A stretch of DNA of 40,543 nt from a virus: positions 1-40,543 of the IMG/VR virus record IMGVR_UViG_3300025282_000086. The stretch is one strand, 5' to 3'. Positions 1 through 14,937 of the stretch are shown in pieces. The notes below the pieces were generated by a model. That model made no database searches, had not been told where the DNA came from, and saw nothing but the letters and a program-made list of their open reading frames with translations. Made by a program: the position numbers and the translations under genes. Positions within the stretch are counted from its first letter, which is position 1. Each line of letters begins with the position of its first letter.

Positions 1-17
1 CTACAAGGAGTATTGAC

Positions 18-323: not shown

Positions 324-335
324 CCACGGCTACCA

Positions 336-369: not shown

Positions 370-411
370 ATAGTAATCGTGGTGATTGCTAATTACACAG
401 GAGTATTGTTC

Positions 412-636
412 ATGGATATAGAGTTGAGTAGTCATGAAAGACCGTCAAAACCTTGCCCTTGTGGTTCAGGTAAGATGTCCATTTGGATGCATGATTGTCA
501 AGGCATACCCCTAGACAGGGTTTGTGATGATTGTGAAGAAAAGAAGCGGTCAAAGTACAGACCAGAGACGTTCTCTGGTTACACGCAAGCCGACCTCGAT
601 GAGTACAGCGGGGAACGCATTGAGCCTCTTGATTGA
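412..636 (+). CDS. Small zinc-ribbon-like protein (SEC-C-like), 74 aa
   Basis: The ATG at 412 has AGGAG 8 nt upstream; an in-frame GTG at 379 lacks such a site. Near the N-terminus the sequence KPCPCGSGK (residues 13-21) resembles the SEC-C zinc motif. It is followed by further cysteines at about residues 29, 38 and 41 (CDDC), enough to bind one zinc ion. The C-terminal half is polar with no clear domain. Its function is unknown. Its last codons form the left arm of the hairpin that precedes the next gene. Zinc binding is inferred from the cysteine spacing. Confidence 0.75.
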   Translation: MDIELSSHERPSKPCPCGSGKMSIWMHDCQGIPLDRVCDDCEEKKRSKYRPETFSGYTQADLDEYSGERIEPLD

Positions 637-657
637 GGCAGAAAGTAGGTGTATATG
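624..657 (+). promoter_or_regulatory. Hairpin plus ribosome-binding module, copy 1
   Basis: GCCTC (624-628) pairs with GAGGC (635-639) across a 6-nt loop. It is followed by AGAAAGTAGGTGTATATG, which sets the start codon at 655. The same arrangement recurs at 846 and 1089, and in a variant form at 1572. Confidence 0.6.
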
Positions 658-840
658 CTTAGGTTGATTGAGCAGGCTTTGGCAGAAAGTTATGAACAAG
701 GCCGGGAAGATGAAAAGAATCCCTCATATGAAATGGGTGTTGTTCTTTTCTCTCGAAGGCACGCTGAGAGGGAGCAGAAAGCAATGGACCTGCTTGATGA
801 CATCAGGCGGGAGTACAAGATTGGGAACCGCTCCCAATAG
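655..840 (+). CDS. Hypothetical small protein, 61 aa
   Basis: This is a charged, probably helical protein of unknown function. The ATG at 655 is preferred over the in-frame GTG at 649, because the repeated hairpin/ribosome-binding module places other start codons at the equivalent position. It has no cysteine pair, signal or membrane segment. The central part (SRRHAEREQKAMDLL) is rich in Arg, Glu and Lys and could form an amphipathic helix. It sits in the early cluster with one repeat module before it and one after. An alternative frame over the same bases (668-856) encodes a Ser/Trp-rich product without a ribosome-binding site and is rejected. Confidence 0.65.
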   Translation: MLRLIEQALAESYEQGREDEKNPSYEMGVVLFSRRHAEREQKAMDLLDDIRREYKIGNRSQ

Positions 841-845
841 CAATC

Positions 846-879
846 GCCTCAGTTGAGGCAGAAAGGTAGGTGTCGAATG
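846..879 (+). promoter_or_regulatory. Hairpin plus ribosome-binding module, copy 2
   Basis: GCCTC (846-850) pairs with GAGGC (855-859) across AGTT. AGAAAGGTAGGTGTCGAATG follows, defining the ATG at 877. The arrangement matches copies 1 and 3. Confidence 0.6.
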
Positions 880-1089
880 CAGAAAGGTAGAAGGCATACC
901 AGAGAAGATTGGTCATGCCGCCTCGTTCAACATGCTTATATCTTTAGTGATAAGAAGAAAGCAGAAGATTATATCGGAGACTGGGGCGGACCACAGGTTG
1001 TGTTACCCTATAAAGATGGGTATATCGTCTCGGAAACTTTGCCCAATGGGCATTGCTATGTGGCTTCCCCTAAACGATGCTCATGTTAG
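877..1089 (+). CDS. Hypothetical small protein, 70 aa
   Basis: The function is unknown. The start is the ATG at 877, 6 nt after AGGTAGG; the in-frame TTG at 853 lies inside the repeated leader and is unlikely. The N-terminus is basic (QKGRRHTRED). A mixed core follows, reading VQHAYIFSDKKKAEDYI and then PYKDGYIVS, and the protein ends in a Cys-containing tail (KRCSC). The pattern suggests a small alpha/beta fold, but no family is evident. It is flanked on both sides by the hairpin/ribosome-binding module, like its neighbours. Confidence 0.65.
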   Translation: MQKGRRHTREDWSCRLVQHAYIFSDKKKAEDYIGDWGGPQVVLPYKDGYIVSETLPNGHCYVASPKRCSC

Positions 1090-1122
1090 CCTCTAGTTGA
1101 GGCAGAAAGGTAGGTGTATATG
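1089..1122 (+). promoter_or_regulatory. Hairpin plus ribosome-binding module, copy 3
   Basis: GCCTC (1089-1093) pairs with GAGGC (1099-1103) across TAGTT. AGAAAGGTAGGTGTATATG follows, giving the ATG at 1120. From the second arm onward it is almost identical to copy 1. Confidence 0.6.
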
Positions 1123-1530
1123 TACACTGACCGTCGTAAGCCTTGGATTCACAGGATGTTACTGTGGATTCTTGGTTTGTTACCAGAACGCAGGACTAAC
1201 CTTGTCCTTTGGGACTGCGGGGAGTTCAGTATGGATGTCAGGGATAATATAAACTCTGACTTTCGTTACGATTCCTTTGGCCGCCTCAAAGGTCTTGGTA
1301 ATCGCTGGTATCGTTACAGCATTAGAGAAAAGCATCGCTTTCGTAAGGCATGTGAACGATATGATGCTAGGGATTACAACCACCGACACTACGCCTCGCT
1401 TTTTCATTGGGAGGTTAGGGAGATGCAGAAGCGGTGGAGGCATAAACCAGATCCTGAGTTGGTTGCTATGACTCGTAATATACTGTTCCAATATGGATGG
1501 AGAGGTGGTGCTAATGAAGAAACCCGTTAG
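1120..1530 (+). CDS. Hypothetical basic protein, 136 aa
   Basis: I do not recognise this protein. The ATG at 1120 lies 5 nt after AAGGTAGG in the third repeat module; the upstream GTG at 1114 is part of the ribosome-binding region. It is rich in Arg, Trp, Tyr and His, with a short hydrophobic stretch near the N-terminus (MLLWILGLLP, about residues 14-23). That stretch could be a membrane anchor or a buried helix. The middle is strongly basic and aromatic (RNRYRYSIREKHRF-like), which might suit nucleic-acid binding, but this is weak. The opposite strand is also open but has no start signals. Confidence 0.7.
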   Translation: MYTDRRKPWIHRMLLWILGLLPERRTNLVLWDCGEFSMDVRDNINSDFRYDSFGRLKGLGNRWYRYSIREKHRFRKACERYDARDYNHRHYASLFHWEVREMQKRWRHKPDPELVAMTRNILFQYGWRGGANEETR

Positions 1531-1600
1531 TTTCTGGAGGTTATGTAAAAATATAGTCTCTTTCGTTTTCTGCGGAGGAATCCGCTACAAAGGTAGGTGA
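1514..1600 (+). CDS. Possible 28-aa peptide
   Basis: A short frame starts at ATG 1514, overlapping the end of the preceding gene by 17 nt, and reads MKKPVSFWRLCKNIVSF then a Cys/Gly/Arg tail. It is basic with a short hydrophobic core. GAGGTGGTG upstream could act as a weak ribosome-binding site. The hairpin at 1572-1585 lies inside the frame, so the stretch may instead be only the leader for the next peptide. It could well be non-coding. Confidence 0.35.
   Translation: MKKPVSFWRLCKNIVSFVFCGGIRYKGR
1572..1600 (+). promoter_or_regulatory. Variant hairpin plus ribosome-binding module
   Basis: GCGGA (1572-1576) pairs with TCCGC (1581-1585) around a GGAA tetraloop, and is followed by ACAAAGGTAGGTGA. 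Only the AAAGGTAGGTG part is shared with the three copies upstream; the hairpin sequence differs while its position is kept. Confidence 0.5.
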
Positions 1601-1610
1601 TTGAGTGTTC

Positions 1611-1697
1611 ATGATTGAATTGGTATTGTGTTTCGTTAGTGTATCGTTTATTGTTCTTTGTTTGATGTTGATACTTCAGGAGGTAAAGGAATTGTAA
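1611..1697 (+). CDS. Possible 28-aa single-span membrane peptide
   Basis: The frame runs from ATG 1611 to a TAA whose last A opens the next gene (TAATG overlap). The product is almost entirely a hydrophobic helix (core LVLCFVSVSFIVLCLMLIL) with a charged tail, so it would insert in the inner membrane. The AAGGTAGG module ends about 13 nt upstream, farther than in the other copies, which weakens the start. T7-like phages often encode such tiny membrane peptides early. The role is unknown. Confidence 0.45.
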   Translation: MIELVLCFVSVSFIVLCLMLILQEVKEL

Positions 1698-1915
1698 TGG
1701 GCAAGCAAATGAAATCTGACAATCTATGTCCCTTGCTTTTGGCTGACCTATTCCAAGAAGCATTGAAAGATAGAATGCTTCAAGGTTGGTTGGCACTGTG
1801 TCCTCCGGGCCTTGTCTTGGAATCTTGTGGGATAGGTCCAGCCTGTATTGCATTTGAATTGGGTGTAGAAGCAGGACTCAAGCAGGCACTTGACTCAGGA
1901 GGCAACGATGGGTAA
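1697..1915 (+). CDS. Hypothetical small protein, 72 aa
   Basis: The function is unknown. The ATG at 1697 lies 6 nt after AAGGA and overlaps the stop of the preceding peptide, so I prefer it to the earlier in-frame ATG at 1658, which lies inside that peptide. The sequence begins MGKQMKSDN and continues as a hydrophobic, Cys- and Leu-rich helical protein (LLLADLFQEALKD; LCPPGLVLESCGIGPACI). The Cys/Gly/Pro-rich middle could be a compact turn or a metal site; neither can be decided from sequence alone. It overlaps the next gene by 8 nt. Confidence 0.6.
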   Translation: MGKQMKSDNLCPLLLADLFQEALKDRMLQGWLALCPPGLVLESCGIGPACIAFELGVEAGLKQALDSGGNDG

Positions 1916-2210
1916 GAAGTTCGCCCCAATGTCTCGCCCTGTATCTATGCGTGAGGGTATGACGCATCAGGCTATTGCCGATGAGTTGAATGCTGACCCT
2001 CACCCTGAATCGGGCGACCACAACACGAAGGAAACCGTAAGGCAAACCCTGAGTAAAATCATATGCAAACTCAGGCACTTTATACTTGAAGATCCTGAGT
2101 GTAGAGAAGCGGCACAAACAATCCTCCAACGTAAGGAGTTTACTGTATTAGAGGAGTTTGAGGATAAACATAAAGAGGCTCGGGAACATTACAAAAGGAA
2201 TCGCCAATAG
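1908..2210 (+). CDS. Small helix-turn-helix (sigma region 4-like) protein, 100 aa
   Basis: The ATG at 1908 follows AGGAGG with a 5-nt spacer. Residues about 18-60 read MTHQAIADELN, then a polar insert, then ETVRQTLSKIICKLR. This resembles the HTH of sigma factor region 4 and related regulators (an A-x-x-L helix, then T-V-x-x-L-x-x-x-x-x-K-L-R), with about ten extra residues in the turn. The C-terminal third is a charged helix rich in Glu, Lys and Arg. A DNA-binding role or a role in modifying host transcription is inferred. It is the last gene before the promoter-like repeats at 2243-2337. Confidence 0.6.
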   Translation: MGKKFAPMSRPVSMREGMTHQAIADELNADPHPESGDHNTKETVRQTLSKIICKLRHFILEDPECREAAQTILQRKEFTVLEEFEDKHKEAREHYKRNRQ

Positions 2211-2218
2211 TATATACA

Positions 2219-2252
2219 TACGTACACAGGTAGGTAGATACCTATGTACGTA
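2219..2252 (+). other. 14-bp hairpin overlapping the first promoter-like repeat
   Basis: Positions 2219-2232 pair with 2239-2252 with a single mismatch and a 6-nt loop (GGTAGA). No T-run follows. It lies just downstream of the early cluster and shares bases with the first promoter-like repeat. It may terminate or process early transcripts. Confidence 0.45.
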
Positions 2253-2279
2253 CGTGATAGTCTAGTTCTACCAAAGGGG
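2243..2279 (+). promoter_or_regulatory. Putative phage RNA polymerase promoter, family A copy 1
   Basis: A 37-nt sequence here is repeated exactly at 2301-2337. The core CTAGTTCTACCAAAGGG (2262-2278) also occurs at 6019-6035. The 3' end, TACCAAAGGG followed by G/A, resembles the CACTAAAGGGAGA end of T3-type promoters. Initiation at the G run is therefore a reasonable guess. It is intergenic and directed at the 2402 gene and RNAP1. Confidence 0.6.
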
Positions 2280-2300
2280 ACCGGACACACCACACGTATG

Positions 2301-2337
2301 TATGTACGTACGTGATAGTCTAGTTCTACCAAAGGGG
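2301..2337 (+). promoter_or_regulatory. Putative phage RNA polymerase promoter, family A copy 2
   Basis: This is an identical 37-nt copy of the 2243 element, 58 nt downstream in the same orientation. Two tandem copies in a gene-poor stretch immediately upstream of a polymerase operon argue for a promoter rather than a chance repeat. It ends AAAGGGGCC, about 65 nt before the ATG at 2402. Confidence 0.6.
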
Positions 2338-2401
2338 CCACGGCACAGGGCTGTGTGTACCCACCCATGTAAACGCCATGACGATAAGGAACATACGTAA
2401 A

Positions 2402-3196
2402 ATGGCTAAGAAGATGATTCAACTGTCTGGACAAGAACTCGTAGCCAAGGGTAATCCTAAGGCTGTGGCTGAACTGGTACGCCGTCACAATAACGGTAGC
2501 CGGTTCGCTATCAAGCGGCTGGAGGAGTTGGGCCTTGACCATGAGGGAAATCCGTTGACCGATGAGCAGCCTGCCCAAGACAGCAACGCTGAGCGTATTG
2601 CTCAACTTGAGGCTGAACTGGCTGCTGCAAAGGCTGGCGGTGTTCCGACAGGCAAGCCAAAGGCGGCGAAGAAGACTCGCAAGGTGAAGTCGGTTGATGC
2701 ACCTCCCGTGTTTACGGAGGCGACGTTGACGGCTATGCCTCGTGAGCAACTCAAGGGGTTGGCTGGTGTTGGTGCTTCAAGCAAGTTGCGGAGCAAGACA
2801 CTGGTTCAGCAGATCCTTGGGAATCAGCAGCCTGAGGTGGAGCCTGTCTCCCCAATACAGGCCAAGACTGAGTACCTGAAAGGTATGATGGTTCGTCAAA
2901 CGCTTACCGATGACGGCATCATGCTAGAGATCCTTGGTACAGGGGTTCAGAAGAAAGACGGCACCTACAAGAAGAAGGCCAAGAAGCATGATCTTACGGG
3001 AGCATGTGGAATTGGTAACGACTACAAGGAAGCCGTCTATAGCCTGAACGAAGGGCTGGCCGAACAGGGATTCAAGATTGGCAAGCCCGGCAACTGGTTT
3101 GAGCAAGTAGATGAGCGGACTGGAATCACTAAGTCCAATCGTCCGAAGCGTCGTAACACTAACAAGTCTGCGGTAATGACAGCAGACCTCGGCTGA
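2402..3196 (+). CDS. Hypothetical protein upstream of RNAP1, 264 aa
   Basis: I do not recognise the family. An earlier ATG at 2378 has no ribosome-binding site, while the ATG at 2402 has AAGGA 11 nt upstream. The N-terminal third is helical, with a Leu/Ala/Glu coiled coil at about residues 60-78 (IAQLEAELAAAKA). A Lys/Pro-rich linker follows. A short helix-extension-helix segment then comes at about residues 110-140 (LTAMPREQLKGLAGVG), reminiscent of SAP/HeH DNA-binding motifs. The C-terminal half is basic. The protein is probably nucleic-acid binding. Its place between the promoter repeats and the polymerase suggests a transcription-related role, but this is inference. Confidence 0.75.
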   Translation: MAKKMIQLSGQELVAKGNPKAVAELVRRHNNGSRFAIKRLEELGLDHEGNPLTDEQPAQDSNAERIAQLEAELAAAKAGGVPTGKPKAAKKTRKVKSVDAPPVFTEATLTAMPREQLKGLAGVGASSKLRSKTLVQQILGNQQPEVEPVSPIQAKTEYLKGMMVRQTLTDDGIMLEILGTGVQKKDGTYKKKAKKHDLTGACGIGNDYKEAVYSLNEGLAEQGFKIGKPGNWFEQVDERTGITKSNRPKRRNTNKSAVMTADLG

Positions 3197-3200
3197 TAGC

Positions 3201-3226
3201 ACTGTGCATGACCTGAGCATGTCAGT
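3201..3226 (+). other. Short imperfect hairpin before RNAP1
   Basis: ACTG and CATG (3201-3204, 3207-3210) pair with CATG and CAGT (3218-3221, 3223-3226) across a 7-nt loop, followed by AAAAGG. It lies in the 74-nt gap between the 2402 gene and RNAP1. It may set the relative expression of the two; it is weak as a terminator. Confidence 0.3.
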
Positions 3227-3270
3227 AAAAGGCTCTTAATGAAACCCTCAAACATATGAGGAGTAAGCCA

Positions 3271-5397
3271 ATGACTAGAGTATTGGATGCTACATTGGAC
3301 CGTCAGCGTGACCTTGAAATGGAAATCGTGGGGTCAGGTAATAATCCTAACCCTATCGTTGACCATCTAGAGGAAGCCCTTGAGGTTGTGATGTCATCCT
3401 TTCAACGCTTGCCCAAGTGGGTCAGGATTGTGCGACATCTCGGAACCCGAAACGTATCACACATAGCCTTATGTGCGACAATGGACAAGGTTTCCAAGTC
3501 AGGTAACACGGCTCAAGCACACCCTGTTGTGAATGAAATATCACAGCGGTTGCTTTGGCTATGTTCTGACATGAGCAGAGATGATCGTTTGGCGTTGGCT
3601 TGGAACGTCTTACATGCTTGCCGACAGGCTGGACTGATTAGCCTGTGGACTAACAAGCGTGAGGATGCTACAGTCGTTCGCCTTACTTCGTACTTGACTG
3701 GTATGCTGGACGAGTATGATCTGTGGGGTCTGGTCGGCATGAATCGTCGGCCTATGATTGTCCCTCCTGTTCCTCATACAATAGAGGAGCCGGGTGGATA
3801 CCTTACAGATGCCCTTCGCCACGGCATTAGTCATGGTACATGGCAGAATGTTGTGGGCCAGAAAATTGTGGCTGCTATGAACGCACTACAAAATACGGCT
3901 TGGGTAGTTGATGAGTGGACCCTTGAGGTAGCCAAGTATACCTTGCTGCCTTATGAGTCTGAGGTCAACAAGTATTCGCACAGCGTTTGCCTACAGGTAG
4001 CGTCTGAGATGCTTGGCATCCCATTCTGGCTGGTTGTGTATCTGGATAACCGAGGCAGGTTGTACTACCTTAGCGATGTATTGTCACCGCAAGGTAATGA
4101 CCTATGCCAAGGCGTGTTGAGGTTTCATGAGAAGCAGCAACTGTCCACGATGCGTGACTGGTTCTGGGCAAGGGTTCAGGTTGCCAATGCGTGTTCTGGC
4201 CTGCCAATAGCAGAAGGTAAGAAACTGGACAAGATGCGATTTGAAGATCGCGCTCAGTGGACTGAGGATAATGAGAAGCAACTCGTTGCTATCTCGAAAG
4301 ATCCTTTGAAACATCTGGATGCTTGGTGGGATGGGTTTGGTAAGGGTGCTGGTACTTTCCGGTGCTTCGCAGCGTGTAATTCGTTGAGTGAAGCCCTTGA
4401 GGATGGCACTTGGAACCTACCCGTTAGGCTTGATGCAACTTCGTCTAACAACCAGCACTCGAATGCTGCCCTACTCGATGCCGATGGAGCATGGCGTGTT
4501 AACCTTGTGCCTAATGACACAGGGTTGCCTCATAACTTCCGAGAGGATATTTGTGAGGAGAACCGTCGTGCTTGGTCTGCGGGTGAGGACGATCACGATT
4601 ACGTTGATATGTTTATCGCTGAGGATGATGTAGTTAACAACGCCAGTGTTGCCAAAGACCCGGTAATGATTATTCCTTACGGTGGTACAGTACTACGTAT
4701 CGGTAAGAATTTCATGGGTGATAAGACTTGGCATAACGCAGGTACTGAAGATGAACCGGAGTGGATGGTGGTTGCTGCACCTGACAGTCCCATCGGTAAG
4801 TTAGACATTGATGTAGAGTTACAATTCGATGTTGCTATGAAACTTGCCAGTCGGTATCGCAAGTCGTTGTTAACTGTGGTCCCGAGTATCCTTAACTACA
4901 TGGACTTTATCAAGGCATGTGTTAAGGCTGCTGCGGAAGATGGTGAGCCTATGGTGTGGACTACTGCGGCTGGTCTTAGGGTTGAGAACTTTAAGAACAA
5001 TCGTGTAGAGTGTACGCTTACGGCTAGTAAACGCTTCGATGACGATTCTTGTTCGTCCTTGAAGTTCTTCAAGTTTGACGATGAGTTGAATGTACGGAAG
5101 TCTTGCACCGCTGGACCTCCTAACTTCACTCACTCAATGGATGGATGTCACTTACAACTGTGTATCTGGAAGGCGATTACAGGTCATGGTGTTATCAGTA
5201 TTGCTGGTATACATGACTGTCTTGCTATGTTGCCTAAGGATGTACCCGCTGTACGCGGTGTAATTCCTGCTATGTTCGTGGCTCTGTATAGGGAGTCACC
5301 ACTGGTAGCTCTCGCTGAAACGTATGATGTTGAGTTGCCTGAGTTCGGTGACTTGTGTATTGATGACGTTCTGGAATCTGAGTTCATGTTCATGTGA
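3271..5397 (+). CDS. Divergent T7-type single-subunit RNA polymerase (RNAP1), 708 aa
   Basis: This is a DNA-directed RNA polymerase of the T7/mitochondrial family. It starts at ATG 3271, 7 nt after AGGAG. Recognisable blocks in order are RRPMIVPPVPHT, the DxRGRxY motif (DNRGRLY, D259), motif A RLDATSSNNQHSNAAL (catalytic D388), motif B SVAKDPVMIIPYGG (K462 and the Tyr), FTHSMDGCHL, motif C GIHDC (D649), and a LESEFMFM C-terminus matching T7's SDFAFA foot. It is shorter than T7 RNAP (883 aa) and than RNAP2 in this window (819 aa). The positions of T7 R551, R627 and R632 are occupied by Leu, Ala and Asp. The catalytic Asp pair, the Lys and the Tyr remain, so activity is likely but perhaps altered. 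The gene looks more G+C-rich than RNAP2. Confidence 0.93.
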   Translation: MTRVLDATLDRQRDLEMEIVGSGNNPNPIVDHLEEALEVVMSSFQRLPKWVRIVRHLGTRNVSHIALCATMDKVSKSGNTAQAHPVVNEISQRLLWLCSDMSRDDRLALAWNVLHACRQAGLISLWTNKREDATVVRLTSYLTGMLDEYDLWGLVGMNRRPMIVPPVPHTIEEPGGYLTDALRHGISHGTWQNVVGQKIVAAMNALQNTAWVVDEWTLEVAKYTLLPYESEVNKYSHSVCLQVASEMLGIPFWLVVYLDNRGRLYYLSDVLSPQGNDLCQGVLRFHEKQQLSTMRDWFWARVQVANACSGLPIAEGKKLDKMRFEDRAQWTEDNEKQLVAISKDPLKHLDAWWDGFGKGAGTFRCFAACNSLSEALEDGTWNLPVRLDATSSNNQHSNAALLDADGAWRVNLVPNDTGLPHNFREDICEENRRAWSAGEDDHDYVDMFIAEDDVVNNASVAKDPVMIIPYGGTVLRIGKNFMGDKTWHNAGTEDEPEWMVVAAPDSPIGKLDIDVELQFDVAMKLASRYRKSLLTVVPSILNYMDFIKACVKAAAEDGEPMVWTTAAGLRVENFKNNRVECTLTASKRFDDDSCSSLKFFKFDDELNVRKSCTAGPPNFTHSMDGCHLQLCIWKAITGHGVISIAGIHDCLAMLPKDVPAVRGVIPAMFVALYRESPLVALAETYDVELPEFGDLCIDDVLESEFMFM

Positions 5398-5405
5398 GGT
5401 GTGTT

Positions 5406-5720
5406 ATGAAGAACGCTTCGTATCGTGAGTTCCTCAAGGATACTCTTATACTTATCCACGAGGGTCTGACGCTTAAGGTATATAAGCGACTCCCCTTAAA
5501 TGCCTATGAGTGGGAGGTATTTCTCTTTGATCGTAAGAGAGACTATAGTGTGAGTATTATGTGGAAAAACAAGAGGATCTATACCCGATTGATAGATCGA
5601 ACCTTCTTTGATCGCAGGAATACTAACGCTAAGGACCGTAAGTATATGCGATTACACGCCAATGTTTTGACTGATGCTGTTAGGAAGGCGTTAGTTAAGA
5701 AAGATAAACCTAATGTCTAG
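5406..5720 (+). CDS. Hypothetical basic protein, 104 aa
   Basis: The ATG at 5406 lies 6 nt after GAGG, which overlaps the RNAP1 stop codon; the GTG at 5394 is less likely. The protein is rich in Lys, Arg, Tyr and Phe with alternating beta-like segments (TLILIHEGLTLKVYKRLP; YEWEVFLFD). A basic helical tail follows. No family is recognised. Its immediate proximity to RNAP1 suggests coupled translation and a role in early takeover, both inferred. The next small gene starts inside its last codons. Confidence 0.65.
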   Translation: MKNASYREFLKDTLILIHEGLTLKVYKRLPLNAYEWEVFLFDRKRDYSVSIMWKNKRIYTRLIDRTFFDRRNTNAKDRKYMRLHANVLTDAVRKALVKKDKPNV

Positions 5721-5829
5721 AGTAACCGAAGCATTGAGGACGCATGTATCTAGGCTGCAAAAGAAAGGCAAGCCTAGAAGATCCAAGAAAAACAAGTATG
5801 GCCTGCGTAGAGCAGGTAGGAAAAACTAA
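5713..5829 (+). CDS. Very basic 38-aa peptide
   Basis: The ATG at 5713 overlaps the previous stop, and its TAA overlaps the next ATG (TAATG at 5827-5831), so the frame fills the gap exactly. The product is extremely rich in Lys and Arg (RLQKKGKPRRSKKNKYGLRR) with no acidic residue apart from one near the start. Binding to nucleic acid, such as DNA, rRNA or phage RNA, is likely from charge alone. It could resemble the small basic peptides that other phages package or use as inhibitors. The tight overlaps support it being real. Confidence 0.6.
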   Translation: MSRVTEALRTHVSRLQKKGKPRRSKKNKYGLRRAGRKN

Positions 5830-6086
5830 TGAATGTACTAGATAGATTCACGCTGGCCGGGTTCACGGTCGAGTTTAGATATAACCAAGTGTCGGTATTA
5901 CACCCGATACACGGGAGGTTTTTGGTTTGCTATAAGCGTACTGGAGAGTGGGCTTATGAAGCCGAATTGAACGGTGCTTACGACGCATTACATGAACGTG
6001 GGTGCATATGTGATAGCCCTAGTTCTACCAAAGGGAGGAACCCCCTCCTGAAGTTCTTCAAGCGTAAGCAAAAAGCAACGGCTTAG
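5829..6086 (+). CDS. Hypothetical protein, 85 aa, with an internal promoter-like motif
   Basis: It starts at ATG 5829 (TAATG overlap, AGGA upstream). The N-terminal 50 residues look like a small beta-rich domain (FTLAGFTVEFRYNQVSVLHP). The C-terminus is basic (KFFKRKQK). No family is recognised. Codons for about residues 60-72 coincide with the third copy of the family A promoter core at 6019-6035, so this gene carries a promoter that would read into the downstream non-coding block. Its stop codon touches the first hairpin of that block. Confidence 0.65.
   Translation: MNVLDRFTLAGFTVEFRYNQVSVLHPIHGRFLVCYKRTGEWAYEAELNGAYDALHERGCICDSPSSTKGRNPLLKFFKRKQKATA
6004..6036 (+). promoter_or_regulatory. 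Putative phage RNA polymerase promoter, family A copy 3
   Basis: The 17-nt core CTAGTTCTACCAAAGGG (6019-6035) is identical to copies 1 and 2, and TGATAG is conserved just upstream with one extra base between. It ends AAAGGGAGG, close to the T3/T7 initiation sequence GGGAGA. Although inside a coding region, it points at the hairpin-rich block and tRNA-Arg, so it may drive their transcription. Confidence 0.55.
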
Positions 6087-6890
6087 CGTTCGTTGTCCCC
6101 CTTACGAACGCAGAGATTAGTTACTTCTCAAGGATTGTATGTACTATTCTCTTATTGAATCCTTGACCTATCCTATGACGGGCGCGGTATGGGGCTGGTT
6201 GGCATAGGTGAGGCTGAATCGCCAAGAGTCATAAGACCACTCGTTTGGGCGAGTATAAATAGAATGTAAGCCCAAAGCGTTCCCTATTAGCGATGTAGGT
6301 CCGACAAACTCTGGACTACACCTAGTAGGGAGGAAACTATATGACAATGGTATTGCCATTGTTGATGTCCAGCGACAGATACCCTGCTTGTCGGACATTG
6401 CTGGCTAACGAGCCTTGCAAGGCGAGACAAAGACTAATCTATCTTGAGGATGATCATTGCTGGAATCAAACTCTCCTGAGCATGAGGAGTCTGAAATAAA
6501 CTGCTTATTTACTATACAGATCACTGGTTGTGATTACCGGCAAGGAAAATTACACTTGCAAGGTGTCCATGTTGCAACATGGTAGCCGGTAATGGAGGGT
6601 TCGATTCCCTCTACTGTTCCTTTTCTATATATCCAAGGGATATCAGAGTTACGCATCCGTCTACATGTGGATAGCAACCACCGATGCGTAGTTGTGACTG
6701 AATATGTCTTGGTACACTAGGAGACAAAGGTGTTGTAAAGCAACGAGAGAGTCCCTCTGCGGATGGATCAATGCGGAGCAGCAGTCAGGCTTTAGAGGCC
6801 AATAAAAACCAACTTACTAGTGGTGGACTCTTTGGCTATGGCTTGTGGGAATAGTTTACCCACCGACCTTGACTCTGGTATCCCTTAGGT
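6086..6890 (+). ncRNA. Candidate large structured non-coding RNA (about 800 nt)
   Basis: No credible reading frame with a ribosome-binding site covers this stretch, but nested hairpins are packed through it. Clear ones (arms) are: 6086-6092/6105-6111; 6128-6136/6158-6166 (9 bp); 6172-6177/6203-6208; 6239-6243/6250-6254; 6282-6290/6322-6330 enclosing 6294-6302/6313-6320; 6344-6350/6356-6362; 6366-6377/6389-6397; 6412-6423; 6473-6477/6485-6489; 6536-6541/6585-6590 enclosing two hairpins; 6629-6634/6638-6643; 6650-6657/6683-6690; 6845-6849/6859-6863. A tRNA T-arm-like hairpin sits at 6595-6611. Size, density and position next to a tRNA in a phage recall the GOLLD and ROOL RNA classes; the class assignment is inference. 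The family A motif at 6019 could start it. Exact ends are unknown. Confidence 0.6.
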
Positions 6891-6908
6891 ATATAGGAGG
6901 AACCGACC

Positions 6909-7025
6909 ATGAAGAAGAATTATTCCAAGTTGATACTTTCGTTTTCTTTCAAAACCTATATCGCTTGGTCTATCTTTGCTGATATAATGCTACTTGGTAC
7001 TGTTATCTACTTGATCTTCAGGTGA
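6909..7025 (+). CDS. 38-aa single-span membrane peptide
   Basis: A strong ribosome-binding site (TAGGAGG, 8-nt spacer) precedes ATG 6909. The product has a basic N-terminus (MKKNYSK) and one hydrophobic span (about residues 18-37, ending in IYLIFR), so it is an inner-membrane peptide. Its stop lies one base before tRNA-Arg, showing compact packing and making it the only gene-like frame after the structured RNA block. Its function is unknown; small holin-like or host-modifying peptides are possibilities. Confidence 0.65.
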   Translation: MKKNYSKLILSFSFKTYIAWSIFADIMLLGTVIYLIFR

Positions 7026-7026
7026 T

Positions 7027-7099
7027 GCGCCCGTGGCTCAGTGGATAGAGCAACGGCCTTCTAAGCCGTAGGTCGCAGGTTCGAATCCTGCCGGGCGTG
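7027..7099 (+). tRNA. tRNA-Arg (anticodon UCU)
   Basis: A complete 73-nt cloverleaf is visible. The acceptor stem is 7027-7033/7092-7098 with a G-U first pair. The D-arm is GCTC/GAGC, and the anticodon arm is ACGGC-CTTCTAA-GCCGT with anticodon TCT. The T-arm is GCAGG-TTCGAAT-CCTGC and the discriminator is G. CCA is not encoded. It reads AGA codons, which are frequent in the A+T-rich genes of this phage, so it probably supplements the host supply. Confidence 0.95.
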
Positions 7100-7113
7100 T
7101 TGAAAGGAATGTT

Positions 7114-7362
7114 ATGAAAATTCATAGGTGTAGAATAGATGTACCCCTTGACGACTTCGATTGTCAGATACAATGTGAGGAATATTACATGGACGAAAAA
7201 ACTTTAGACAAAATTGAAGATTTGTTGCACCAACTAGATCAAAATCATGGTAAAATGAATGGTGTTATGGATAGGATGGACCTAGCCCTATCGGCTGCTA
7301 TTCAGGTATGTGACGATGCCATCAAGAATTTAGAAGGTGAGATCAGTAAATGGGACGAGTAA
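7114..7362 (+). CDS. Hypothetical coiled-coil protein, 82 aa
   Basis: The ATG at 7114 is preceded by AAAGGA. The first 25 residues are polar with two cysteines. From about residue 28 onward the sequence is helical and amphipathic (LDKIEDLLHQLDQNHGKMNGV; DDAIKNLEGEI), consistent with a coiled coil. No family is recognised. It is the first gene after tRNA-Arg and starts a run of six small overlapping genes leading to the DUF932 protein. It overlaps the next gene by 13 nt. Confidence 0.65.
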   Translation: MKIHRCRIDVPLDDFDCQIQCEEYYMDEKTLDKIEDLLHQLDQNHGKMNGVMDRMDLALSAAIQVCDDAIKNLEGEISKWDE

Positions 7363-7511
7363 AAGAAACTGCGTATGAATGCTGGGAACTTGCGTCCGCT
7401 GCTTGGTATAAAGGTGAGGAACCTGATTGGGAAAGAATCGGTGAACTCACTGGACTTGACCCTAAAACCGCAGAACAATGGGCAAAGGGTTGGGAGGATT
7501 TAAATGACTGA
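7350..7511 (+). CDS. Hypothetical 53-aa protein, HTH-like
   Basis: This small frame fills the gap between 7362 and 7504, starting at ATG 7350 inside the previous gene (AGGTGAG upstream) and ending 8 nt inside the next one. The product is acidic and Trp-rich. Its second half, DWERIGELTGLDPKTAEQW, has the look of a short helix-turn-helix (helix, turn at GLDP, helix). The overlaps on both sides are typical of this cluster and support it being real. DNA binding is only a suggestion. Confidence 0.6.
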   Translation: MGRVKETAYECWELASAAWYKGEEPDWERIGELTGLDPKTAEQWAKGWEDLND

Positions 7512-7794
7512 AGAAGAAGGCGAATATAAATTCTCTAGGGCGCAACAGCGTCAACTAAATAAAAACCTAGCCGCAAAACGTGATTATGCTGCGGGTGACA
7601 AGAGTGCTGATGCAGCAAAGCGTAAGAATTGGACACCCTTTAACATGAACAAACCCGATCATGGGTCTGGTAAGGGTGATGACCAAAGACCAAGGAATAT
7701 CTCTGCTGCTGAGTATGGCTTACGTTATGACTTTGCCGTTGGGAACATTTCGATTGAAGAATTTAATAAGAAGATGGAAGAGTTGGATGACTAA
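7504..7794 (+). CDS. Hypothetical protein, 96 aa
   Basis: It starts at ATG 7504 with GGGAGG 5 nt upstream. It is polar and charged: an N-terminal helix (FSRAQQRQLNKNLAAKRD), a Gly/Lys/Asp-rich middle and a C-terminal helix (EEFNKKMEELDD). It has no cysteines or membrane segments. It is probably partly disordered, with an unknown function. It is overlapped by its neighbours at both ends, so translation is probably coupled. Confidence 0.65.
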   Translation: MTEEEGEYKFSRAQQRQLNKNLAAKRDYAAGDKSADAAKRKNWTPFNMNKPDHGSGKGDDQRPRNISAAEYGLRYDFAVGNISIEEFNKKMEELDD

Positions 7795-8005
7795 ACCACG
7801 TTGGGGTTTATATAATACCGAGAATGATTCTTGGTTTTACCATGAATCAATGGTAGAATCTGAACCTGAGTATTCGTCTTACACCCGTGAGTTGGCTATA
7901 TTTTCTGACAAGGGTGAGGCTGTGTTGGCCGTTAGACATTTGGATAGGTTCTTTCAAGGTATATATGAACCAAGAAAATTACCAAAGGATATGAGTAATG
8001 GATGA
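7787..8005 (+). CDS. Hypothetical protein, 72 aa
   Basis: The ATG at 7787 lies 8 nt inside the previous gene (ATGACTAA overlap) with GGAAGAG upstream. An upstream extension in the same frame runs antiparallel to sense in the neighbouring gene and is ignored. The sequence MTKPRWGLYNTENDSWFY, followed by a short beta/alpha pattern (YTRELAIFSDKGEAVLAVRHLD), suggests a small mixed fold. The family is unknown. The next gene starts within its last codons. Confidence 0.6.
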   Translation: MTKPRWGLYNTENDSWFYHESMVESEPEYSSYTRELAIFSDKGEAVLAVRHLDRFFQGIYEPRKLPKDMSNG

Positions 8006-8180
8006 ATTACCCACACAGGATGAAGTAAATCAGTTTTTGGATCACGTTAGAGAACTAGGCGTAGTTAATATGTTTGGTGCTGGAAACTACATCCAAGAAC
8101 AGTTTGATATTGGTAGTAAGGATGCTACTCGGTTCCTTTCGGAATGGATGAGTACCTTTGAGGAGAGACAAGATGCCTGA
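7998..8180 (+). CDS. Hypothetical protein, 60 aa
   Basis: ATG 7998 overlaps the preceding stop, with AAAGGA upstream. It is an acidic, helical small protein (DEVNQFLDHVRELG; GSKDATRFLSEWMSTFEE). A helix-turn-helix-like spacing is possible around residues 25-50, but no family is recognised. It overlaps the next start by 8 nt, consistent with translational coupling along the cluster. Confidence 0.6.
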   Translation: MDELPTQDEVNQFLDHVRELGVVNMFGAGNYIQEQFDIGSKDATRFLSEWMSTFEERQDA

Positions 8181-8511
8181 AATCTTTGACATTCAAGAGG
8201 CAGTACTAGGATTACTTGAGTGGACCGAAGAAGATCAGGGTATCGGACACTATGAGTTTTGGGGTAGTAAGGAAAGGGATGTAAATTGGCAACCCGTTTT
8301 AGAGAACCCAGAGGTTGAGTTTGAGGTGGATCTTAGCGGTAAGAATCTACTTGAGAATGAGGATTGGTTGCCTTTGTATTTCAATCGTTATACTCAAGCC
8401 TTTATTGATGATAATAGAGGCTATGATGTAACGATTCACGCTAGTCTTAGTGGTATCAAGTATCTTGGTGCTAAGAAGTGGTTTGTAAAGTATGAAATCG
8501 AACACGAATAG
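8173..8511 (+). CDS. Hypothetical acidic protein, 112 aa
   Basis: The ATG at 8173 has GAGGAGAG upstream; an in-frame TTG at 8158 is less convincing. The protein is strongly acidic with aromatic-rich beta-like segments (HYEFWGSKERDVNW; WFVKYEIEHE). It is soluble with no cysteine motif. The role is unknown, though small acidic phage proteins sometimes mimic DNA. It ends 9 nt before the DUF932 gene. Confidence 0.65.
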   Translation: MPEIFDIQEAVLGLLEWTEEDQGIGHYEFWGSKERDVNWQPVLENPEVEFEVDLSGKNLLENEDWLPLYFNRYTQAFIDDNRGYDVTIHASLSGIKYLGAKKWFVKYEIEHE

Positions 8512-8519
8512 GAAAAAAT

Positions 8520-9533
8520 ATGTCGCATGAAATGACAGAAAATGATTCGGCTGTATATTATGGTAAGAAAGCATGGCACGGTCTTGGTACTGTGACTAAT
8601 ACCATTCTCTCCCCTAGAGAAGCTTTGGTTGAAGCAGGTTTGGACTGGACAGTTAAGCCTTCTACCTATATTGAATACTTTTATCGTAATGATGAAGGTG
8701 AAAATGTATCGGGATCTACCAGTGACCGAGTGGCTAATGTCCGATCTGATACGGGCGATGTGCTTGGTTGGGTTGGTAAAGAGTATAAGGTAGTACAAAA
8801 TGCAGAACTGGCAGAACTCGCTTATAGTCTTGCTGGTGATGATACTCATGTGGAATCTTTTGGTTCCCTTAGGAACGGTGCTAGAATTTATACCCTTCTT
8901 AGGGCCGATTCTTTCATGGCTGATGGATTCAATGATACTGTTGATCAGTATCTTTGCCTCTGTAATGGACATGATGGTACACTGGCTCTTAGTGGGTTGC
9001 CTACTAGTATTCGGATTGTGTGTGAGAACACTTTGAACATGGCTTTGTCTCAGAGTAGCCGTAATATGTTTAGGTTTACTCATAATGGTGATATGGCAGA
9101 CAAGATGGCTCAAGCGAGGCAAGCATTGTCTTACTTTCGTGAGACTGGTAAATTCTTTAGAGAGAATGTACAACAGTTGACCTCCGTTAATTGGGACAAG
9201 GACAGTATCACTAAGTTCTGGCTTGACTGCTACCAGATGATTGAGGAGAAGGATGTTAATCCCAATCCTCAGACTGAGGCCGAGGATAATACCTATAAGC
9301 ACGCTATGACTACCTTGAATTCTTGGAGTCAGACATTTGATAGTGAGCGTTCTGATCTTGGGTCCAATCCTACGCCTTGGATGGCTGCTAATGCTGTGAC
9401 CAACTGGCTCCAGCACAGGAAGGCCAAGCGTGGTCGTCAGATGGCTACCGCTGCTAGAATTGATAGGAACCTGTTTGGCAAGGGTGCTAGTAACTCGATG
9501 AAGGTTATGCGCAAGGCTCTTGCTGCTATTTGA
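8520..9533 (+). CDS. DUF932 / phage-plasmid-like protein, 337 aa
   Basis: The start MSHEM, the block AWHGLGTV near residue 18 and the pattern SPREALVEAGLDW identify the DUF932 (phage/plasmid-like, TIGR03299) family. Later blocks agree, such as NARIYTLLRAD-like and CENTLNMALSQS. The protein is of usual length for that family. These proteins are common in phages and plasmids and have no firmly known function; links to recombination or single-strand annealing have been suggested. It closes the cluster before the promoter-like motif at 9587 and RNAP2. The opposite strand is open over the same span but is a shadow. Confidence 0.85.
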   Translation: MSHEMTENDSAVYYGKKAWHGLGTVTNTILSPREALVEAGLDWTVKPSTYIEYFYRNDEGENVSGSTSDRVANVRSDTGDVLGWVGKEYKVVQNAELAELAYSLAGDDTHVESFGSLRNGARIYTLLRADSFMADGFNDTVDQYLCLCNGHDGTLALSGLPTSIRIVCENTLNMALSQSSRNMFRFTHNGDMADKMAQARQALSYFRETGKFFRENVQQLTSVNWDKDSITKFWLDCYQMIEEKDVNPNPQTEAEDNTYKHAMTTLNSWSQTFDSERSDLGSNPTPWMAANAVTNWLQHRKAKRGRQMATAARIDRNLFGKGASNSMKVMRKALAAI

Positions 9534-9560
9534 TATTACGGGGTGAGGCATTTGGCTGGT

Positions 9561-9578
9561 CCTAATGATTGTATTAGG
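9561..9578 (+). other. Small hairpin before RNAP2
   Basis: CCTAAT (9561-9566) pairs with ATTAGG (9573-9578) across GATTGT. It lies between the DUF932 stop and the promoter-like motif. It may slow read-through from the upstream cluster, although no T-run follows. Confidence 0.35.
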
Positions 9579-9586
9579 TATTCCCT

Positions 9587-9607
9587 ATAACCGGGTATAG
9601 TAGTATA
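9587..9607 (+). promoter_or_regulatory. Putative promoter, family B copy 1 (before RNAP2)
   Basis: The motif TAACCGGGTATARTAGTATA occurs here (R = G) and at 21687-21707 (R = A), with only that base changed. It lies in the 99-nt gap before RNAP2, 25 nt upstream of its ATG. A TATAGT resembling a bacterial -10 box is inside it, so both a phage-polymerase promoter and a host promoter are possible. GTAGTATACTAC at 9600-9611 is a perfect palindrome. Confidence 0.5.
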
Positions 9608-9632
9608 CTACTTACTGACAAAGGAGATCCTT

Positions 9633-12092
9633 ATGCAATTATGGGACAAACTCTCAGAACAAGACAGAGGCGAGAGGATATCTACTCAAAATCTCATGGA
9701 AGAGGAGATGATAATGGGTGGAATCGCTCGCTACTGGAAAGACTATGAGCGTTCACCAGATGAAGGGCTACCGGAGCAACAGTTACTTGATGCTACGGTA
9801 GTCCACCTCACCCCTTTCTATCAAGAATGGATAGATAAATTATGTAGTAACCATAAGACACCTACTTGGTTAATACCACTGTTGGCTTTAGGTGCGCCTA
9901 AGATGGCTGACCTAACCCTAAGATGTTTCATTAGGGAATGGTTACGATCAGCCATGTTCAGGGATAAGGAATTCTCAGGGTTGATGAACCCTGCCTATCC
10001 ATTACCTACTGCACAAAAACTATCGAATATTATTTCCCAAGAAGCCTTTGCTATCATAGCTTATCAACAATCTAAAGAAGATTTTAAAAACGATTGGCAA
10101 AGGCAATCCAAGTTTATAAAGAACTGGACAACTAAAAGATGCCGGGCCTTCTCTATTAAGGTAGGTTGTCTACAAAACGTATCCTTAAAACGAAGACAAG
10201 ACTTTGGACATCATATGCTTCGTATTGCAGAAACCTCTGGTATTTTTCTAATGCTATCCCAACGATATGGTGGGGGTAAGATGTGGAGAAAGCGTTTGTT
10301 TATTACCCTACGACCTGATATACTTAGGGATCTCCATGATAAACATGCAATACTTGAGTCTAAGAATTTATTGTATCGACCTATGATAGTACCTCCTGTC
10401 GATCACACCTTACAAGCCAGTGGTGGTTATCTTAATCACTGGTCCCGTAAGGAAGTTGTCCAGAGGTATCTTTCAGATTACGAAGAAGGTTATTTAAAGC
10501 CTCAGAGTTTCTCTCAACCTAGTCAGCTTGTGTTAGATGGTTTAAATGCCATGATGCAGACCGAGTGGACTGTGAATCCAAAGGTCTTGGGGGTAATGGA
10601 GAATCTCTTTAAAAATAATACTTGTCTTGCAAACCTTCCGGCTTTCTCTTTAGATGTGTTTATGTTTAATGAACCTTATCCTGAAGATGGATCTAAAGAA
10701 GAACAGGCCAAGTGGTGCGTGGCAAGAGAAGAACATTGGGGTGACTGGTTTAAGTCCGAGCAACACCGTTGTCGTTTGCTTGTTAGACTAAATCTCGCCA
10801 AGGAATTATCAAAGTATGAATTTTGGTACATGCCTTACACACTAGATTTTAGGGGTAGGGCGTATTCTACCTGTGAGCTATTGTCTTGTCAGGGTTCTGA
10901 TTTAGATGTCGGTTTAATTATGTTTGCTGAACCAAGACAACAAACCACAGGTGGGGTGAGGTGGCTTAAGATACATATAGCGAACCTGTTTGATGAGGAT
11001 AAGGGTTCGTTTGCCGACAGAGTTAAATGGGTTGATGATAACATTGAGATGTTACGGGCTATCAATAATGATCCCTATGAAAATAAAGAGTGGGTTTCAG
11101 ATAAAACAAAAAAGAACCCATCGTTCCAAAGGCTTGCCGCAATATTTGATTTGTTCAGGGAGGATGGTTTAACACAGGTTCCTGTTCAGGTTGATGGGGC
11201 GTGCAATGGCTCTCAGCATTGGTCCTCTATAATGAGAGATGAGGTCATTGCCAAGCTGACTAACGTAGATGTTAATGATTTACCTCAAGATCTCTATCAG
11301 TTTATTGCCGATAAGGTTACAGTATTCTGCGATAAAACTAAAGAAGAGGTATCATTGTATGATGATTTTCTCGTTCATTGGAAACATAAGATACCAAGAA
11401 AAGTTACAAAGCGTAGTACTATGTGTGAACCATATGGTCTTACATTCTATGGTATACAGCGGTATCTTAAAACTGAGGGACACTTGGATTGGATGCCTAA
11501 GGATTCTCAGAATGCAGCTATTACTGAACTAGCCCGAGCTATAAAAGCTGGGTTAGAAGAATCTTTAGTCATGCCTAACAAGGGTAAGGAATATCTTAGG
11601 AAGATTGGGGAGATAGCAAGTAATCTTAATGAACACATTGTTTATACCACACCATCAGGATTCCGTGTGGTCCATGCTTACTTCAAACCAACGAAGCGTC
11701 GTAGCTTTGCTGAGTTATTTAATAAAAAAGAATTAATCTTTGCTACCCATAGTCAGACGGATGTGGATCGCAAGGCAGTTATGCAGGCTATATCACCTAA
11801 CTGGATACATAGTTTAGATGCCAGTCATTTATTCTGTACAGTGTATCGTGCTATAATGAATGGAATGTACCAGTTCTCTATGGTTCATGATTCCTATGGT
11901 TGTCCTGCTCCAGATATGGATTTATTAGTACCATTCATAAGGGAAGAATTTTATGAAATGCATAAGGAAGACCAGCTACAGAGACTCAAGGAGGATGTTG
12001 AAGAACAACTCGGATTGTCATTGCCAGAGCTGCCCGAAAGAGGACAATTCGAAATTGAAAGAGTTCTCAGATCTGATTACCTCTTTGCTTGA
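9633..12092 (+). CDS. Canonical T7-type single-subunit RNA polymerase (RNAP2), 819 aa
   Basis: This is a phage DNA-directed RNA polymerase. AAAGGAG precedes ATG 9633. All family landmarks are present: YRPMIVPPVDHT with GGYL, the DFRGRAY motif (D405), motif A QVDGACNGSQHW (catalytic D521), and motif B RKVTKRSTMCEPYG (R589, K593, R594 and Tyr). NWIHSLDASHL, motif C MVHDSYG (D753) and a C-terminal SDYLFA follow. Unlike RNAP1, the basic residues equivalent to T7 R551, R627 and R632 are intact, so this looks like the fully active enzyme. The gene is more A+T-rich than RNAP1. It presumably transcribes replication and structural genes; which promoter family it uses is unknown. Confidence 0.97.
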   Translation: MQLWDKLSEQDRGERISTQNLMEEEMIMGGIARYWKDYERSPDEGLPEQQLLDATVVHLTPFYQEWIDKLCSNHKTPTWLIPLLALGAPKMADLTLRCFIREWLRSAMFRDKEFSGLMNPAYPLPTAQKLSNIISQEAFAIIAYQQSKEDFKNDWQRQSKFIKNWTTKRCRAFSIKVGCLQNVSLKRRQDFGHHMLRIAETSGIFLMLSQRYGGGKMWRKRLFITLRPDILRDLHDKHAILESKNLLYRPMIVPPVDHTLQASGGYLNHWSRKEVVQRYLSDYEEGYLKPQSFSQPSQLVLDGLNAMMQTEWTVNPKVLGVMENLFKNNTCLANLPAFSLDVFMFNEPYPEDGSKEEQAKWCVAREEHWGDWFKSEQHRCRLLVRLNLAKELSKYEFWYMPYTLDFRGRAYSTCELLSCQGSDLDVGLIMFAEPRQQTTGGVRWLKIHIANLFDEDKGSFADRVKWVDDNIEMLRAINNDPYENKEWVSDKTKKNPSFQRLAAIFDLFREDGLTQVPVQVDGACNGSQHWSSIMRDEVIAKLTNVDVNDLPQDLYQFIADKVTVFCDKTKEEVSLYDDFLVHWKHKIPRKVTKRSTMCEPYGLTFYGIQRYLKTEGHLDWMPKDSQNAAITELARAIKAGLEESLVMPNKGKEYLRKIGEIASNLNEHIVYTTPSGFRVVHAYFKPTKRRSFAELFNKKELIFATHSQTDVDRKAVMQAISPNWIHSLDASHLFCTVYRAIMNGMYQFSMVHDSYGCPAPDMDLLVPFIREEFYEMHKEDQLQRLKEDVEEQLGLSLPELPERGQFEIERVLRSDYLFA

Positions 12093-12363
12093 GATAAGGG
12101 AAATCATTTGGGTTGACGCTCATTCTCAGGGTGGTCCTGAGTGGGTCACAGTAGAGGAAGCGTATTCATATGCCACAGAACCTTTACCTCAGATTAAAAA
12201 TGTAGGTTATATTTTATTTGAGAATGAGGAGTATGTAGCATTCACGGATACAGTTGGGGAGGATACGACAGGAACGGTTCATAGTATTCCCCGGGAGATT
12301 ATTATTGAGATGTCAACTTTAAGAAGGGGGCAAAATCATGACGATGAGGTTGATAGACAGTGA
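12085..12363 (+). CDS. Conserved small phage protein, 92 aa
   Basis: The start is uncertain. No ATG occurs in frame after the RNAP2 stop, so TTG 12085, overlapping the end of RNAP2, is the best candidate; a rare ATT at 12106 after AAGGG is an alternative. The sequence (EIIWVDAHSQGGPEWVTVEEA, then VGYILFENEEYVAF and IPREIIIEM) resembles small phage proteins that carry W-V-D-A, G-G-P, G-Y-x-L and I-P-R elements in a compact beta fold. The function is unknown. It overlaps the next gene by 26 nt. Confidence 0.65.
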   Translation: MLEIREIIWVDAHSQGGPEWVTVEEAYSYATEPLPQIKNVGYILFENEEYVAFTDTVGEDTTGTVHSIPREIIIEMSTLRRGQNHDDEVDRQ

Positions 12364-14773: not shown

Positions 14774-14846
14774 GCCCTCGTAGCCCAACGGCAGAGGCAA
14801 TGGACTTAAAATCCATACAGTGTGGGTTCGAATCCCACCGAGGGTA
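14774..14846 (+). tRNA. tRNA-Leu (anticodon UAA) with a short variable loop
   Basis: A 73-nt cloverleaf is seen. The acceptor is 14774-14780/14839-14845 with a G-U first pair. The anticodon arm is ATGGA-CTTAAAA-TCCAT, the T-arm is GTGGG-TTCGAAT-CCCAC, and the discriminator is A. The variable region is only 5 nt (ACAGT), whereas bacterial leucine tRNAs normally have a long variable arm. The D-stem is short (GCC/GGC). It would decode UUA, a common codon in the A+T-rich late genes. Confidence 0.85.
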
Positions 14847-14853
14847 CTATATA

Positions 14854-14923: not shown

Positions 14924-14937
14924 AAAGAGACCTCTAC

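Follow-up and report, generated by a model that had tools for sequence, protein, structure and literature searches.

Two single-subunit RNA polymerase genes and two classes of promoter-like motifs in a T7-like phage genome

Results

Gene organization around the two RNA polymerase genes

The window analyzed here is the whole 40,543-base stretch of IMG/VR record IMGVR_UViG_3300025282_000086. It contained two intact and separate genes for single-subunit RNA polymerases (RNAPs) on the plus strand, a divergent RNAP1 (3271–5397, 708 aa) and a canonical T7-like RNAP2 (9633–12092, 819 aa). The scores against Pfam RNA_pol (PF00940) were 125.3 bits (E = 3.9e-36) for RNAP1 and 263.8 bits (E = 3.5e-78) for RNAP2, both above the curated cut-off of 22 bits. 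Both proteins also matched PHROG 414 (1.2e-145 for RNAP2), and a sequence search of the PDB returned RNAPs of T7 and of mitochondria for both. A previous sequence-only reading of this DNA had proposed two complete T7-type RNAPs in one phage, and the intact reading frames and Pfam scores confirmed the two genes. The RNAP1 frame begins earlier, at ATG 3256, but ATG 3271 is the better start because it is preceded by the ribosome site GAGGAG.

The gene directly 5' of RNAP1, ORF272 (2378–3196, plus strand), matched neither Pfam nor PHROG families. Its homologues were located directly before RNAP1 in the related contigs G029 (38%) and G002 (28%), and a 252-aa ORF occupied this place in G014, with no BLAST match and 24% in a forced pairwise alignment. 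ORF272 is possibly a cofactor of RNAP1. The gene before RNAP2 encodes a DUF932 protein (8520–9533, plus strand; PF06067, 1e-39), which was found at the same place in relatives. The portal, capsid, tail, DNA polymerase and helicase-primase genes of the window were T7-like (PHROGs 449, 267, 446, 457, 17 and 239), as had been noted for the portal, capsid and tail genes, and the best isolate identities were approximately 33% for the portal and 39% for the DNA polymerase.

Exact terminal repeats were absent from the 40,543 bases, and the window probably covers about two-thirds of the genome, as the long contigs of relatives are 60–69 kb. The GC content varies along the window (48.3% in RNAP1, 40.4% in RNAP2), which might point to two genomes joined by an assembly artefact, an objection raised in advance by the sequence-only reading, but this was rejected because independent IMG/VR contigs were collinear with the window up to base 15394, the end of the compared loci (L002, 99.76% from base 1, and L003, 99.98% from base 992, both spanning the two genes; L004, 99.86% from base 4549, inside RNAP1), while relatives kept the same gene order and the GC step is a feature of the lineage.

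Conserved residues and predicted fold of the two proteins

Conserved positions were compared in an alignment of 16 RNAP1, 18 RNAP2 and 12 reference RNAPs, using the residue numbers and roles of T7 RNAP (D537, D812, K631, Y639, R627 and others). The RNAP2 family kept all 14 checked positions, with R627 and Q544-H545 in 18 of 18 members, and the window RNAP2 thus had the whole T7 catalytic set. The references likewise kept all 14, except for N in place of H545 in LUZ100 and RHEph01. The best isolate matches to RNAP2, the RNAPs of LUZ100, BB8 and RHEph01, were 28% identical over 97–99% of its length.

The RNAP1 family was far more variable, as the identity to the window RNAP1 fell to 13% among relatives. 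K631, Y639 and D812 were nevertheless kept in all 16 members, D537 and R425 in all 15 members that cover them (G055 is truncated), and H811 and H784 in 15 of 16. The DxRGR motif, Q544, H545, Y571, the foot and the neighbors of motif A were drifting. Arg was found in the R627 column in only four of the 16 (Ala in the window, Thr in G029). For the members that diverge most, some of these variable columns may be shifted by one position; G003, for example, has Arg one place earlier. The window RNAP1 kept Q544-H545 but ended in FMFM instead of the FAFA foot, and its smaller length relative to T7 RNAP is mostly due to the absence of a large part of the N-terminal domain. The earlier statement that each protein carries the full motif set held for DxRGR, the motif A Asp, K631/Y639 and the HD pair in both; for motif B and the F-rich foot it was too generous, since RNAP1 has Ala at R627 and the FMFM end. 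Both proteins can accordingly be placed in the single-subunit RNAP superfamily by PF00940 together with the two catalytic Asp, K631 and Y639, while the canonical T7 gp1 set (R627, Q544-H545, F/A-rich foot) is incomplete in RNAP1.

An AlphaFold model of RNAP1 based on 15 sequences (pLDDT 83, pTM 0.78) adopted the right-hand fold of single-subunit RNAPs. The comparison by Foldseek and VIA-align ranked T7 RNAP first (8dh5_M, Z 41.7, 487 residues, rmsd 2.9 Å), with Z-scores of 22.3 for N4 RNAPII and 21.2 for N4 vRNAP. An assignment of RNAP1 to either N4 enzyme was rejected, as the model was nearer to the T7 and mitochondrial enzymes.

The loss of R627 and of the foot, the drift in DxRGR and around motif A, and the very fast divergence might indicate that RNAP1 has given up general transcription and persists as a decayed or regulatory protein with a retained fold, binding for example the P1 sites described below or host DNA. 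However, both catalytic Asp, K631 and Y639 were present in all members with data, and relaxed selection would hardly keep these residues at identities down to 13%, so that this explanation is considered unlikely. We therefore read RNAP1 as a presumably active enzyme, because both metal-binding Asp are kept at such low identities, although the lack of R627 and the FAFA foot makes its activity less than certain.

Distribution and phylogeny in the lineage

A single-query search with RNAP2 detected 28 distinct loci with 35–100% identity. The RNAP2 family profile matched 502 stretches, which may include more distant RNAPs, and the best 80 of these, with 49–100% identity, were kept. The window is placed in a clade without close isolates. 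Five long contigs carried exact end repeats of 55–127 bases. The conserved order was giant ORF (3,515–5,565 aa where complete), early region, RNAP1, DUF932, RNAP2, replication genes, nucleotide genes, portal, capsid and tail.

With Pfam as the sole criterion, 4 of 16 and 9 of 40 records, many of which are fragments, showed a second RNAP gene separate from the first. An RNAP1 profile, built from five of the carriers, identified RNAP1 in 16 of 23 contigs with RNAP2, a proportion that does not represent prevalence because the contigs were picked partly for having a second match. Ten of the other 11 carriers also matched the general RNAP profile, and G048 matched the RNAP1 profile only, weakly (E = 3e-4). 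The seven contigs without an RNAP1 match included G007 and G010, which are cut short. The early regions of G008, G011, G013 (read across its contig ends, which share a near-identical repeat) and G033 contained no ORF of 280 aa or longer, and in G041 the place of RNAP1 was taken by a 625-aa ORF that had no match.

In a tree of 45 sequences, from which the partial G055 was left out, RNAP2 formed one clade beside the isolate RNAPs (support 100). The RNAP1s of the window, G029 and G002 formed another (100), to which G014 was attached with a support of 77 and the very long G032 with 54, and ten shorter RNAP1s formed a third (100). The references and RNAP2 were split from the RNAP1s at a support of 92, although long branches of the fast-evolving RNAP1s may have affected the RNAP1 grouping. 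The tree thus placed the two proteins in different clades. With their 24% identity and different GC content, this agreed with the view that they are distinct proteins, and a recent duplication of RNAP2 as the origin of RNAP1 was rejected. The RNAP2 of G014 was located among those of G008, G011, G013 and G033, suggesting that the RNAP1 module was lost repeatedly or moved, since no RNAP1 was found in the latter four genomes.

RNAP-like motifs in the giant proteins of relatives

The window ends short of the giant gene. A giant protein is present in the window's species, as read from its C-terminal 2,060 aa, and the contig G017 extends 8.7 kb beyond the upstream end of the window. In the relatives, the giant ORFs (L100, L077, L254, L229, L226 and L245) adjoin the early region. 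With regard to the giant virion RNAP of N4-type systems, RNAP-like motifs were seen only in giants of other relatives, namely G003, G005, G037, G039, G041 and G048 (3,999–5,327 aa). These shared a motif A of the form D...[NS]G.H[HN] and a motif B of the form [RK]...K.......Y; in G005 and G003, YFDGNFNGIHHKMAL and RxLFKKPVMxYLYGA corresponded to motifs A and B with R627, K631 and Y639. Of the 16 complete or partial giant sequences examined, six had the A/B pattern with an upstream HD pair. The pattern had been defined with these proteins already in view, and G031 gave one unrelated A/B match without HD.

The HD pair common to the six giants lay 82–122 aa before motif A (82–88 aa in G037, G039, G041 and G048, 119 in G005 and 122 in G003), and no HD common to the six was found within 900 aa after motif A, where only non-shared pairs occurred (G048 at +523; G003 and G005 at +70 to +74). 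The palm may be circularly permuted, in the order C-A-B, because the sole shared HD precedes motif A. The G005 giant matched Pfam RNA_pol with 15.7 bits (E = 1.1e-4), below the cut-off of 22, and PHROG 414 with E = 2.6e-4, whereas Pfam RNA_pol was absent from the G003 giant. The domain had no sequence match in the PDB or in phage records, its profile-profile probability was at most 38%, and its predicted model was of low quality (pLDDT 45.7). Its profile matched three of 18 further records (G031, G032 and G040) and gave no match in the other 15, including G029, G002 and G033, some of the records being fragments.

These motifs are a lead that the giant protein of some relatives may contain a third RNAP domain. 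A relay of three polymerases, in which this domain of a virion-type protein would start transcription after injection and be followed by RNAP1 and then RNAP2, is rather improbable on the present matches.

Two classes of promoter-like motifs

Two promoter-like motifs, designated P1 and P2, were identified by a repeat-based motif search. A tandem P1 pair (2243–2347, plus strand) with 15-nt cores at 2264–2278 and 2322–2336 (AGTTCTACCAAAGGG), 58 bp apart, was located upstream of ORF272-RNAP1, and a third copy (6004–6035, plus strand; core 6021–6035) downstream of RNAP1. P2 was found upstream of RNAP2 (9586–9607, plus strand; TATAACCGGGTATAGTAGTATA), at the same place as in G029 and G002, and upstream of the dUTPase-RNR and structural genes (21686–21707, plus strand; AATAACCGGGTATAATAGTATA), with counterparts at the same place in G029 (14690) and G002 (60986, 2 mismatches). 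The repeats previously noticed at 2243/6004 and 9587/21687 were therefore real. When up to 3 mismatches were allowed, the P1 17-mer had three matches in the window, compared with an expectation of 0.09, and P2 had two against 0 expected. Exact sites in the window, G029 and G002 numbered 3, 3 and 4 for P1 and 2, 4 and 2 for P2, all on the plus strand and counted in G002 with its own variants, while 100 shuffles per genome gave no site.

The P1 sequence (AGTTCTRCSAAWGGG) had three copies in the window (2264, 2322 and 6021) and three in G029 (61559, 61617 and 65500). G002 had the variant GAATCCTACCAAAAG at 39134, 39188, 42460 and 51671, together with a one-mismatch copy inside the RNAP2 gene, and G055 had an exact copy at 8476 and two-mismatch copies at 848 and 3026. 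The pair before the gene preceding RNAP1 was also seen in G029 (58 bp) and G002 (54 bp), and a pair of different sequence occupied the same place in G014 (64 bp). The copy downstream of RNAP1 corresponded to G029 65500, G002 42460 (variant) and G055 848 (2 mismatches), and copies were also found after RNAP2 in G002 and G055. The P2 sequence (AACCGGGTATARTAGTA) had two copies in the window (9589 and 21689), four in G029 (2293, 14690, 34892 and 57932) and three in G002 (35718 and 48681, 1 mismatch; 60986, 2 mismatches). In G029, G002 and the species of the window, one P2 site lay where the early region begins (on G017, directly behind the giant ORF), and G029 had one after the tail spike.

At up to 1 mismatch, nothing beyond the G055 P1 copy was detected in other contigs. 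Stray two-mismatch P1-like matches were found once each on the minus strand of the window, in G005 and in G031. Contigs carrying the shorter RNAP1s, such as G003, G005, G030 and G031, yielded no comparable pair of motifs. Sigma-70-like sites in window 1–12200 numbered 13 against 22.3 in shuffles, and no host-type promoter stood out.

The conservation of the motifs followed that of the specificity loops in the same order, among few genomes. Between the window and G029, the specificity-loop region was 95.7% identical in RNAP2 (78.1% for the protein) and 50% in RNAP1 (59.9%), and the P2 core was unchanged while P1 had changed; between the window and G002, the corresponding values were 78.7% and 44%. 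Another motif, AGTTGGGGCTACTGATA (up to 2 mismatches), was common to G008, G011, G010, G033 and the RNAP1-bearing G014, and was also located upstream of the SSB gene in G008, G011 and G014. Its presence in G014 as well as in G008 and G011, where no RNAP1 was found, is as expected of an RNAP2 site.

In T7, the tandem promoters phi1.1A and phi1.1B act as an origin. By analogy, RNAP1 might mainly prime DNA replication at the tandem P1 pair while RNAP2 carries out bulk transcription. The fixed place of the pair in the window, G002, G029 and, with other sequence, G014, as well as the small number of P1 sites in all, would fit such a role, but single P1 copies are also located downstream of RNAP1 and, in G002 and G055, of RNAP2, and there is only a small chance that priming is its main function. 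A similarly small chance is given to P1 and P2 being other regulatory, packaging or processing elements, with both RNAPs using unrecognized sites. The window holds only three P1 and two P2 sites, and the search was based on repeats; on the other hand, the sites are exact matches on one strand upstream of genes, end in a start-like GGG in the window and G029, keep their positions, and covary with the specificity loops. P1 and P2 are thus better read as promoters.

Composition and RNA elements of the early region

In each of the 10 relatives for which it was determined, the GC content of the early region exceeded that of the rest of the genome, the difference being 2 to 13 points. This also applied to G008 and G033, in which RNAP1 was not detected. 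A foreign origin of RNAP1 on the ground of GC was therefore not supported, the step being an early-region feature of the lineage. In G037, RNAP1 had 57.8% GC in a genome of 39.1%.

A Pistol self-cleaving ribozyme (Rfam RF02679; 42.9 bits, gathering threshold 34.5, E = 1.1e-4) was detected at 6239–6300 on the plus strand, starting 203 nt past the end of the third P1 core and 218 nt past its start, compared with 227 nt past the core start in G029. It lies in a stretch of about 0.9 kb (6090–7025) between the third P1 and tRNA-Arg (7026) that has no plus-strand ORF of 60 aa or longer and is perhaps a structured non-coding RNA. Pistol ribozymes were found in the early regions of the window, G029, G037, G048, G041 and G008, and two type II hammerheads in G039. 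The ribozyme loci of relatives were L217 1212–1273 (minus), L225 11066–11143 (minus), L245 13583–13653, L255 8036–8088, L090 17673–17749 (minus), and L229 15003–15068 and 15482–15550; no ribozyme was found in the searched pieces of G002, G014, G005, G031, G030, G032 and G055. The window also carries tRNA-Leu (taa) and tRNA-Met (cat) among the replication genes (14774–15010), and a manA RNA motif (RF01745, 78.6 bits) was detected in G032 (L243 3535–3729).

Discussion

A probable two-stage transcription program

The explanation we favor, and consider probable, is that the phage has two active RNAPs, each with its own promoter class (P1 for RNAP1 and P2 for RNAP2), and that RNAP1 acts before RNAP2. 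The two genes, the predicted fold of RNAP1, its retained catalytic residues, and the two motif classes with their conserved places are observations; the catalytic activity, the pairing of motif and enzyme, and the order are what we infer here. The pairing is suggested by gene neighborhood and covariation in few genomes. RNAP1 is placed first because its gene is located in the early region and the P1 site at 6021 is the nearest same-strand P1 upstream of RNAP2. The cascade that the sequence-only reading had put forward becomes more likely with two classes of promoter-like motifs that are arranged in the same way in three genomes, while the order remains conjectural.

RNAP1 would first be transcribed by the host RNAP or by a virion-delivered enzyme. 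Once made in the early region, it would read the P1 promoters. From the tandem pair it would transcribe its own ORF272-RNAP1 operon, constituting a self-amplifying loop, and from the copy after RNAP1 it would proceed through the ribozyme and tRNA region towards DUF932 and RNAP2. RNAP2 would then read the P2 site of its own gene, thereby amplifying itself, and the other P2 sites upstream of the dUTPase-RNR and structural genes, at the start of the early region and, in G029, after the tail spike. Expression of the nucleotide, structural and late genes would thus depend on the P2 sites.

In phage T7, the textbook example, a single polymerase reads a single promoter class. The present clade comprises at least 80 loci with RNAP2 relatives of at least 49% identity, and at least some members have a second, fast-changing polymerase that seems to have a promoter class of its own. 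If the proposed program is true, it shows how a single-enzyme program becomes a two-stage relay and provides new polymerase/promoter pairs for testing. It also raises the question of whether a single-subunit RNAP works without R627.

Comparison with known systems

Autographiviridae normally have one RNAP per genome. RNAP2 shares the full catalytic set with the canonical RNAPs of this family (T7 gp1, LUZ100, BB8 and RHEph01), whereas in RNAP1, R627, the foot and a large part of the N-terminal domain are absent.

N4/Schitoviridae and P23-45 also carry more than one phage RNAP, which act at different stages, as may be the case here. Two RNAP genes together with a large virion RNAP are reported for Schitoviridae (PMC10057805), and a virion RNAP fused to the tape measure and a non-virion RNAP for Thermus phage P23-45 (PMC10770324). 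Unlike in these systems, both RNAPs of the window are encoded by separate single-chain genes, and the RNAP1 model is nearer to T7 RNAP than to the N4 enzymes.

In the open-licence PMC literature, no paper describing two single-subunit RNAPs in a T7-like phage was found, and in the paper on Alteromonas phage R8W (PMC8228385) the term 'RNA polymerase' appears 0 times. The statement that a T7-like phage normally has one RNAP holds as a rule, but isolates with two are already in GenBank. Like the window, Alteromonas phage vB_AspP-H4/4 (Foturvirus) has an early 708-aa RNAP (gp3) and a second RNAP of 796 aa (gp29), located approximately 17 kb from the first in a genome of 47.6 kb. R8W (Foturvirus), also a T7-like podophage, has two RNAP-matching places, as have the records of phiV141 and the Vibrio K437b group, and Vibrio phage JSF7 (Tawavirus) has two annotated RNAP genes, gp16 and gp41. 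The early RNAPs were 87% (R8W) and 31–34% (JSF7, phiV141 and the K437b group) identical to H4/4 gp3. H4/4 gp3 did not group with RNAP1 in the tree, where long branches may mislead, and it keeps R627 and Q544-H545, unlike RNAP1 at R627. The presence of two RNAPs in a T7-like phage is thus already known from isolates, and H4/4 gp3 is only 24% identical to RNAP1.
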